Origin: a virus
DNA: 24,493 bases
Strand: one strand, 5' to 3'
IMG/VR virus record: IMGVR_UViG_3300006917_002544
Span: 1-24,493 of that record
The notes under the pieces: generated by a model
Database searches by the model: none
Told to the model about the DNA's origin: nothing
What the model saw: only the letters and a program-made list of their open reading frames with translations
Part shown: piece after piece, positions 4,591-5,117 of the stretch
How positions within the stretch are numbered: position 1 is the first letter of the stretch
Layout: each line of letters opens with the position of its first letter
Made by a program: the position numbers and the translations under genes

Positions 4591-4606
4591 TGTTTCACGT
4601 GAAACA
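4591..4606. other. parS centromere site, perfect consensus
   Basis: TGTTTCACGTGAAACA is the full 16-bp palindrome bound by chromosomal ParB (Spo0J) in most bacteria that have ParABS. All 16 positions match. It abuts an SOS-box palindrome (4607-4620) with no gap. No parA or parB gene is in the window, so host ParB is the likely partner unless the element encodes its own elsewhere. The site is intergenic, about 60 bp upstream of the promoter at 4501-4529. Confidence 0.87.
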
Positions 4607-4620
4607 CGAACAGGTGTTCG
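4607..4620. promoter_or_regulatory. LexA/SOS-box palindrome beside parS
   Basis: CGAACAGGTGTTCG, a full match to CGAAC-RNRY-GTTCG, starting on the base after parS. Confidence 0.77.
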
Positions 4621-4801
4621 CTCGCTCGCCCGTTCGATTACACCTCTGAGCAGGGCTTTCCCCTCAGACCCCCCTAGAAGGCTCTGTGAGCCTCTCTACC
4701 CCCTCTGCGCCCCTGCCACCCATTTCCGACGCTAGCGAGGCTCTCAGGGCATCTCGTTACACCCTGCGTGCCAACAAACGCCCTGCTAGATGGGCATAAA
4801 T

Positions 4802-4840
4802 GACCCCTTGCGAGGGTGTAAAGAGACCCCTTGCGAGGGT
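4802..4840. repeat. Direct repeat pair, 16 bp x 2
   Basis: GACCCCTTGCGAGGGT at 4802-4817 and 4825-4840, 23 bp apart. Each copy can form a small GACCC/GGGTC-type hairpin. The first copy overlaps a GGTGTAA heptamer. Could be iterons of the origin. Confidence 0.65.
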
Positions 4841-4848
4841 CGGGCGAT

Positions 4849-4913
4849 ACTTGTAGAGCGCAACTATTGTGGTCAGCAACCATTGTGGTCGGCAATAGTT
4901 GTAGGCTACAAGT
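4849..4913. repeat. Nested inverted repeat with internal direct repeat
   Basis: Outer arms ACTTGTAG (4849-4856) and CTACAAGT (4906-4913); inner arms CAACTATTG (4861-4869) and CAATAGTTG (4893-4901). The arms are separated by 4-nt unpaired stretches and all are perfect complements. The loop carries a 14-bp direct repeat, ATTGTGGTC-R-GCAA (4866-4879 and 4882-4895, spacing 16). It could be a cruciform, a protein-binding iteron block, or a structured RNA such as a replication-control RNA; no promoter for it was identified. Confidence 0.7.
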
Positions 4914-4938
4914 GTTAGGCACACCTAACGAGTGGAGA

Positions 4939-4967
4939 CGAACAGATGTTCTGCGAACAGGTGTTCT
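4939..4967. promoter_or_regulatory. Two LexA-type palindromes, 15 bp apart
   Basis: CGAACAGATGTTCT (4939-4952) and CGAACAGGTGTTCT (4954-4967), each with one outer-base mismatch. The second shares its last T with the first DnaA box. Confidence 0.67.
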
Positions 4968-5015
4968 GTGGATAAAGGTGTGGATAACTTGGGCTGTGGA
5001 TAAGGCTGTGGATAA
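4967..5015. other. Four perfect DnaA boxes
   Basis: TGTGGATAA (complement TTATCCACA, the high-affinity DnaA box) occurs at 4967-4975, 4979-4987, 4995-5003 and 5007-5015, all in the same orientation, with start-to-start spacing 12, 16, 12. SOS-type palindromes flank the block on both sides. This indicates initiation by host DnaA. The regular spacing in so short a span is far beyond chance. Confidence 0.82.
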
Positions 5016-5023
5016 CCTCTGAG

Positions 5024-5117
5024 CGAACAGGTGTTCGGTCGTGGTGCGAACAAGTGTTCGGGCGAACAGGTGTTCGGGTCGAACGAGGGGCGAAGTCAAG
5101 GGGCGAACAGATGTTCG
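5024..5117. promoter_or_regulatory. Four LexA/SOS-box palindromes
   Basis: CGAACAGGTGTTCG (5024-5037), CGAACAAGTGTTCG (5047-5060), CGAACAGGTGTTCG (5063-5076) and CGAACAGATGTTCG (5104-5117). All fit CGAAC-RNRY-GTTCG. Half sites such as CGAAC at 5080 lie between them. The 4-bp centre varies within the R-N-R-Y rule, as expected if the arms are read by a dimeric repressor. Confidence 0.77.

Follow-up and report, generated by a model that had tools for sequence, protein, structure and literature searches.

The window, that is, the whole stretch of DNA analysed here, is an IMG/VR virus record of 24.5 kb (24 493 nucleotides) that encodes a ribonucleotide reductase, an SSB, a DNA methyltransferase, a ThyX-type thymidylate synthase, a DUF932 protein and a WhiB protein, the last of which, from knowledge of the family, presumably indicates an actinobacterial host. 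The overlapping record G001 added a primase/helicase to this gene set and the diverged relative G002 added baseplate genes. Profile searches of the window, G001, G002 and a further relative, G011 (all incomplete records), gave no domain match for tyrosine integrase (PF00589), S24/LexA-type (PF00717) or ParB_N (PF02195), so that any LexA or ParB acting on this DNA would most simply be that of the host. By the same profiles, the integrase, CI/LexA-like S24 repressor and own partition genes that characterise phage-plasmids and temperate phages were not found in the incomplete records of this group.

A motif scan of the window identified one exact parS site, seven GAACANRTGTTC (SOS-type) boxes and four perfect DnaA boxes within about 530 bp (4591–5117), hereafter designated the hub; all sites listed in a first-pass annotation of this DNA, and the junctions between them, were located. 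That annotation had also described 4591–5117 as gene-free, which is correct, although the gene-free stretch is wider and extends from about 4530 to 5263. The parS site, TGTTTCACGTGAAACA at 4591–4606, is an exact 16-bp palindrome and the only one in the window with fewer than four mismatches; it is a predicted site of the chromosomal type (16-bp palindrome TGTTTCACGTGAAACA or near variants). It ends at 4606, and the first SOS-type box, the 14-mer CGAACAGGTGTTCG at 4607–4620, abuts it. The second box (CGAACAGATGTTCT, 4939–4952) was identified by motif scan and by alignment to relatives, and the third (CGAACAGGTGTTCT, 4954–4967) is fused to the first DnaA box: the SOS core at 4955–4966 immediately precedes the DnaA box at 4967–4975, and on a 14-bp count of the SOS box, base 4967 belongs to both. 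The four DnaA boxes, perfect matches to TTATCCACA on the minus strand at 4967–4975, 4979–4987, 4995–5003 and 5007–5015, are co-oriented within 49 bp and form a cluster of the kind found in DnaA-dependent origins. Beyond them the motif scan placed the remaining SOS-type boxes at 5024–5037 (CGAACAGGTGTTCG), 5047–5060 (CGAACAAGTGTTCG), 5063–5076 (CGAACAGGTGTTCG) and 5104–5117 (CGAACAGATGTTCG).

Five of the seven SOS-type boxes contain the full core CGAACN4GTTCG, and a T replaces the last G in the other two. They are predicted sites of the actinobacterial LexA type (palindrome CGAAC-N4-GNNCG) and match the published Streptomyces LexA motif tCGAAC-N4-GNNCGa (PMC9380542), a consensus that may differ from that of LexA in the phage's host, whichever host that is. 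Purine-purine centres lie on the same strand in all seven window boxes; a general polarity of SOS-box centres, true in the window, was rejected since it fails across families. Exact GAACN4GTTC palindromes occur outside the hub three times (1068, 2768 and 19776); of the boxes at 1068 and 2768, one falls within an ORF at 968–1477 and the other in a GC-rich stretch. In 20 000 random sequences of 764 bp with the dinucleotide composition of the region, the chance expectation per 764 bp was 0.00075 SOS cores and 0.003 DnaA boxes, and none of the 20 000 contained more than one SOS core, more than one DnaA box or any parS. Between the first and second SOS-type boxes, an interrupted palindrome (arms 4849–4869 and 4893–4913) and a GTTAGGCACACCTAAC palindrome together occupy 4849–4935, a candidate additional protein-binding or structural element; the segment 4780–4930 folds better than shuffled sequences (z −4.5), and analogous repeats are present in G002 and G011. 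A 179-amino-acid ORF spanning the hub was not counted as a gene, its similarity to an ORF of G002 being weak and repeat-driven, and an Rfam search gave no match.

To the right, alignment to relatives revealed a conserved block at 5159–5262, consisting of GCGGGGCTTTTTCG, GGGGGGCGTCCCC, an AT-rich stretch and TAGATTTATCCRAAC, which is about 77% identical in G002 and G011. Its AT-rich conserved part, at about 5207–5245, is a candidate unwinding element; no unusual DNA fold was found in the block. A motif TTYRGATAAATC(TA) at 5236–5249 on the minus strand, directed leftward into the hub, also occurs 32–37 nt upstream of the gene starts at 23279 (−) and 6548 (−) and in G001, G002 and G011, and in view of this placement looks like a phage-specific promoter element. 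The gene to the right (5264–5710, minus strand) points toward the hub and is 84–86% identical in G002 and G011. At the left edge of the hub, a sigma70-type promoter (TTGACT-17-TAGAAT, 4501–4529, minus strand) serves a leftward block of small genes, the first of which lies at 4257–4454 (−). Near-consensus promoters with 17-bp spacers at 3703–3731, 4146–4174 and 4501–4529 (−), one for each successive small leftward gene (n=3), have a GTTACA motif in common in their spacers, and the arrangement resembles an early-gene block.

Using a hub-neighbouring protein as the query, we found the relatives G001, G002 and G011 and one contig ending at the hub edge, and a search with the conserved right block recovered the same three relatives; cultured phages and plasmids gave no BLAST match to the hub. 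G001 is near-identical to the window and G002 is diverged (median protein identity 58–60%), and both keep the whole hub layout, which in G002 comprises CGTTCCACGTGGAACA abutting CGAACACCTGTTCG, an SOS cluster, the fused SOS-DnaA junction and 7–10 DnaA boxes. Conservation between the window and G002 is uneven, with 46 of 49 positions identical (94%) in the stretch from the second SOS-type box to the second DnaA box and 25 of 30 in the parS-SOS1 segment, against 178 of 318 (56%) in the spacer. The G002 parS, GTTCCACGTGGAAC, carries substitutions at mirrored positions, so that the palindrome is preserved, and the abutting SOS box is kept. G011 has a single SOS box fused to a DnaA box altered by one base, its further DnaA boxes are few and partly degraded, and parS is absent from all 39.6 kb of its sequence.

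A second clade, comprising G012 (the same phage as L030), G015 (L116/L041) and L319, encodes proteins about 40–60% identical to those of the window group, with 8–11 per pair for G012 and G015; these include SSB, primase/helicase and DUF932 proteins, and WhiB-like matches were found too. Each of its hubs contains a dense DnaA array of 13–16 boxes in about 500 bp, followed by an SOS cluster on the inner edge and then by a block ending TAGATTTATCYAAAC that matches the right flank of the window hub. The homologue of this right block lies beside the hub in L116/G015 and L319 and is more diverged in L030/G012. The genes flanking the hub converge on it in L116 and L319. Neither G012 nor G015 showed a parS site. 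DnaA-box doublets, mostly with 12–13 bp spacing, are scattered over the genomes of G012 (L344–L346) and G015 (L347–L348); several of those in G012 precede CAACTAACG, and some, being inverted, may represent RNA hairpins instead. The triple co-location emphasised in the first-pass annotation holds in part: SOS-type and DnaA boxes persist together in the diverged relative and in the second clade, so that relatives do not keep just one type of site, and both the SOS-DnaA and the parS-SOS junctions recur, but the three are not an indivisible unit, parS being missing from G011 and the second clade. Since these phages retain both of the other predicted site types, DnaA plus SOS boxes are the conserved core of the element and parS is a sublineage add-on.

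Tandem SOS-type boxes were common in viral contigs among the matches listed, and the density of viral DnaA boxes within 500 bp of such tandems was five times that in the rest of those loci (0.53 versus 0.10 per kb). In DnaA-bearing hubs, DnaA boxes with at most one mismatch reached 5–40 per kb, against 0–1.3 elsewhere in nearly all compared records. The spacing from SOS boxes to co-oriented DnaA boxes in viral contigs was non-random (8 pairs at 0 bp, 20 at 15–16 bp and none at 7–11 bp), with peaks at 0, 4 and 15–16 bp that are inflated by the counting of homologous sites; pairs spaced by 24 bp seem to belong to a single conserved, possibly coding stretch and were left out of the hub counts. 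The fused SOS-DnaA motif GAACANNTGTTCTGTGGATAA was found in 11 viral stretches versus one match, at an alphaproteobacterial locus, in 257 Gb of bacterial and archaeal genomes, so that the motif is essentially absent from these genomes and the earlier suggestion that the hub mimics the host origin is not borne out. A parS-SOS junction identical to that of the window, with different flanks and without DnaA boxes, occurs in L072/L126, and looser parS-SOS spacing in L249, L251, L257, L260 and L261. parS alone is frequent in phages, including cultured Gordonia phages, and seldom lies near SOS boxes; short-motif BLAST likewise returned mostly T5-like DnaA arrays or parS alone. No newly fetched locus in the scans for SOS-DnaA pairs had a parS site lying no more than 1 kb from SOS and DnaA boxes alike, so that, as far as those scans reach, only the window group has the triple.

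On chromosomes, parS sites are generally found close to oriC. Like a bacterial oriC, the window hub has an array of perfect or near-perfect DnaA boxes in gene-free DNA beside an AT-rich conserved block; it differs in being located on a phage, with interleaved SOS-type boxes and no adjacent dnaA gene. Host LexA sites are also carried by CTXphi, GIL01 and similar phages, where LexA acts at promoters, whereas the window boxes abut DnaA boxes and parS. In the Gordonia phages PatrickStar (Orchidvirus) and Harambe (Woesvirus), host-type parS matches likewise lie in small-gene gaps near the genome end, but the parS of PatrickStar stands alone, with no SOS or DnaA boxes found beside it in the scanned stretch. 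The T5 injection stop region, in the terminal region of the phage, contains repeats, palindromes and DnaA boxes (PMC13250531) and resembles the hub as non-coding phage DNA with these features, but it belongs to E. coli phages, is located in a terminal repeat, and LexA-type and parS sites are absent from its description. The extrachromosomal mycobacterial prophages RedRock and Miko are actinophages with partition sites near the replication region; they encode their own ParAB, and their parS loci are 8-bp direct repeats (PMC7157519), whereas the window has a host-type parS, with ParB not found in the incomplete records of its group. The description of RedRock and Miko mentions neither DnaA nor LexA sites (PMC7157519). 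As the first-pass annotation had stated, no phage origin of such composition was described in the literature searched, although the scope was limited and absence is weak evidence.

With a little under an even chance in our estimation, the hub may be an oriC-like locus at which a WhiB-encoding actinobacteriophage initiates or controls replication, using host DnaA and LexA and, in some phages, host ParB. Host DnaA would occupy the array of boxes and open the adjacent AT-rich block, at which the phage's own primase/helicase and SSB would load. Host LexA at the clustered SOS-type boxes, the third of which touches the first DnaA box, would exclude or disturb DnaA there; alternatively, LexA might block transcription that enters the hub from the right. 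RecA-driven cleavage of LexA would then release the block and couple phage replication to host DNA damage. In the window sublineage, the ParB of the host would be drawn to the host-type parS that directly adjoins an SOS box, and would position or segregate the phage DNA. From the geometry of the sites, a LexA dimer on the box touching the first DnaA box would be expected to interfere with DnaA, and the abutting parS-SOS sites invite the same reasoning for ParB and LexA. Functional cross-talk, for example LexA controlling DnaA access, is plausible from the overlap of the predicted sites, and their conservation strengthens it. Since distantly related phages retain the DnaA/LexA portion, the hub probably links the replication of phage DNA to the host's condition. 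Protein-DNA contacts, origin activity and gating are what we infer here from the observed sites, junctions, conservation and gene context.

Several lines of evidence favour the oriC-like reading. The sites are exact and far above chance, DnaA boxes are enriched in hubs and near tandem SOS boxes, and the spacing of the two is non-random, homologous sites included. In G002 the SOS-SOS-DnaA-DnaA core is far better conserved than the spacer, and parS is altered symmetrically with the abutting SOS box retained, while the second clade retains the DnaA array, SOS cluster and AT-rich block. The phage group encodes primase/helicase, SSB and WhiB. S24/LexA-type, ParB_N and tyrosine-integrase domains were not found in the window group, although all the records are fragments and such absences carry little weight, and the SOS-type boxes match the Streptomyces LexA motif (PMC9380542), which may not be the host's. 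Against it, many origins have more DnaA boxes than the four of the window hub, G011 is reduced to a single SOS box with a small number of DnaA boxes that are in part degraded, and GC skew, with no consistent extremum at the hub in these fragment records, does not consistently mark it as an origin. The fuller version, a phage origin assembled from host parts in which DnaA starts replication, LexA through the fused box restricts firing to the SOS-on state and ParB at the abutting parS positions or segregates the DNA, appears doubtful. The DnaA doublets scattered through second-clade genomes would suit a regulatory or sponge role as well, and together with the many tandem sites in gene-free DNA and the DnaA-box arrays of other lytic phages, for example T5-like ones, they are consistent with a decoy that titrates host DnaA, LexA and ParB, stalling host replication, disturbing SOS or disrupting segregation, with no origin present; we consider this unlikely, as a sponge needs neither a conserved fused SOS-DnaA junction, nor a fixed order beside an AT-rich block, nor a single parS.

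The GAACANNTGTTC boxes might instead be read by a phage-encoded DNA-binding protein, an initiator or regulator, rather than by LexA, given that a symmetric LexA dimer does not require the uniform purine-purine centres of the window boxes and that the boxes are strictly clustered at the origin-like array. This seems improbable to us, because the box sequence is the actinobacterial LexA consensus, the centres vary in other families and no obvious shared candidate protein lies beside the hub. An operator region, at which the sites control the leftward early-gene promoters or the right-hand promoter-like motif and so form an SOS-inducible early operon, would be in keeping with the strong leftward promoter at the hub edge (4529–4501) and the motif at about 5249 directed into the hub. 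Yet the SOS boxes lie 80–600 bp upstream of the leftward promoter without overlapping it, and the convergent genes flanking the L116 and L319 hubs are contrary to a plain promoter-operator role; origin or replication control fits better, given the overlapping LexA-type and DnaA sites, the conserved order beside the AT-rich block and the convergent genes in these two relatives, and we regard the operator as distinctly unlikely. Control of DNA entry, with repeats, palindromes and DnaA boxes by the early genes pausing genome injection as at the T5 stop signal, would accord with the make-up of the T5 region (PMC13250531) and with a hub bordering a small-gene block with strong promoters, but neither a terminal repeat nor a genome end was seen at the hub, the T5 description lacks LexA-type boxes and parS, and the second-clade context differs, all of which make it very unlikely. 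Chance co-location or an assembly artefact is hardly credible: the window record is single and fragmentary, but another assembled contig, G001, also carries the hub, as does G002 in diverged form, and its probability in dinucleotide-matched random sequence is negligible.

If the oriC-like reading is true, uncultured actinobacteriophages would gate DnaA-driven replication by the host DNA-damage repressor at the origin and not only at a promoter, and some of them would borrow the host centromere system without carrying ParAB. The hub is a small DNA element (about 700 bp), and GAACANNTGTTCTGTGGATAA provides a search motif that picks out such phages.

Elsewhere in the window, about seven degenerate direct repeats of 36–40 bp at 6560–7425, several in a 36-bp register, adjoin an exonuclease gene in a region that is open on the plus strand. 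A transposase-like gene of the IS110/phrog_4285 type at 7671–8522 (−) is about 60% conserved in G015 and present in G002, and is for that reason possibly a resident phage gene. Two large proteins encoded at 10263–12110 and 12392–14302 (−) have a common N-terminal EPYDPDAIDADGDGIVQEGTAWERP segment, and the first gave a weak PI3/4-kinase-like match below the curated cut-off. A gene for a TauD/TfdA-family dioxygenase was identified at 19468–20286 (−; PF02668, 1.2e-13), and G002 encodes a cytochrome P450 at 31278–32549 (L267:11278–12549; PF00067, 8e-24).
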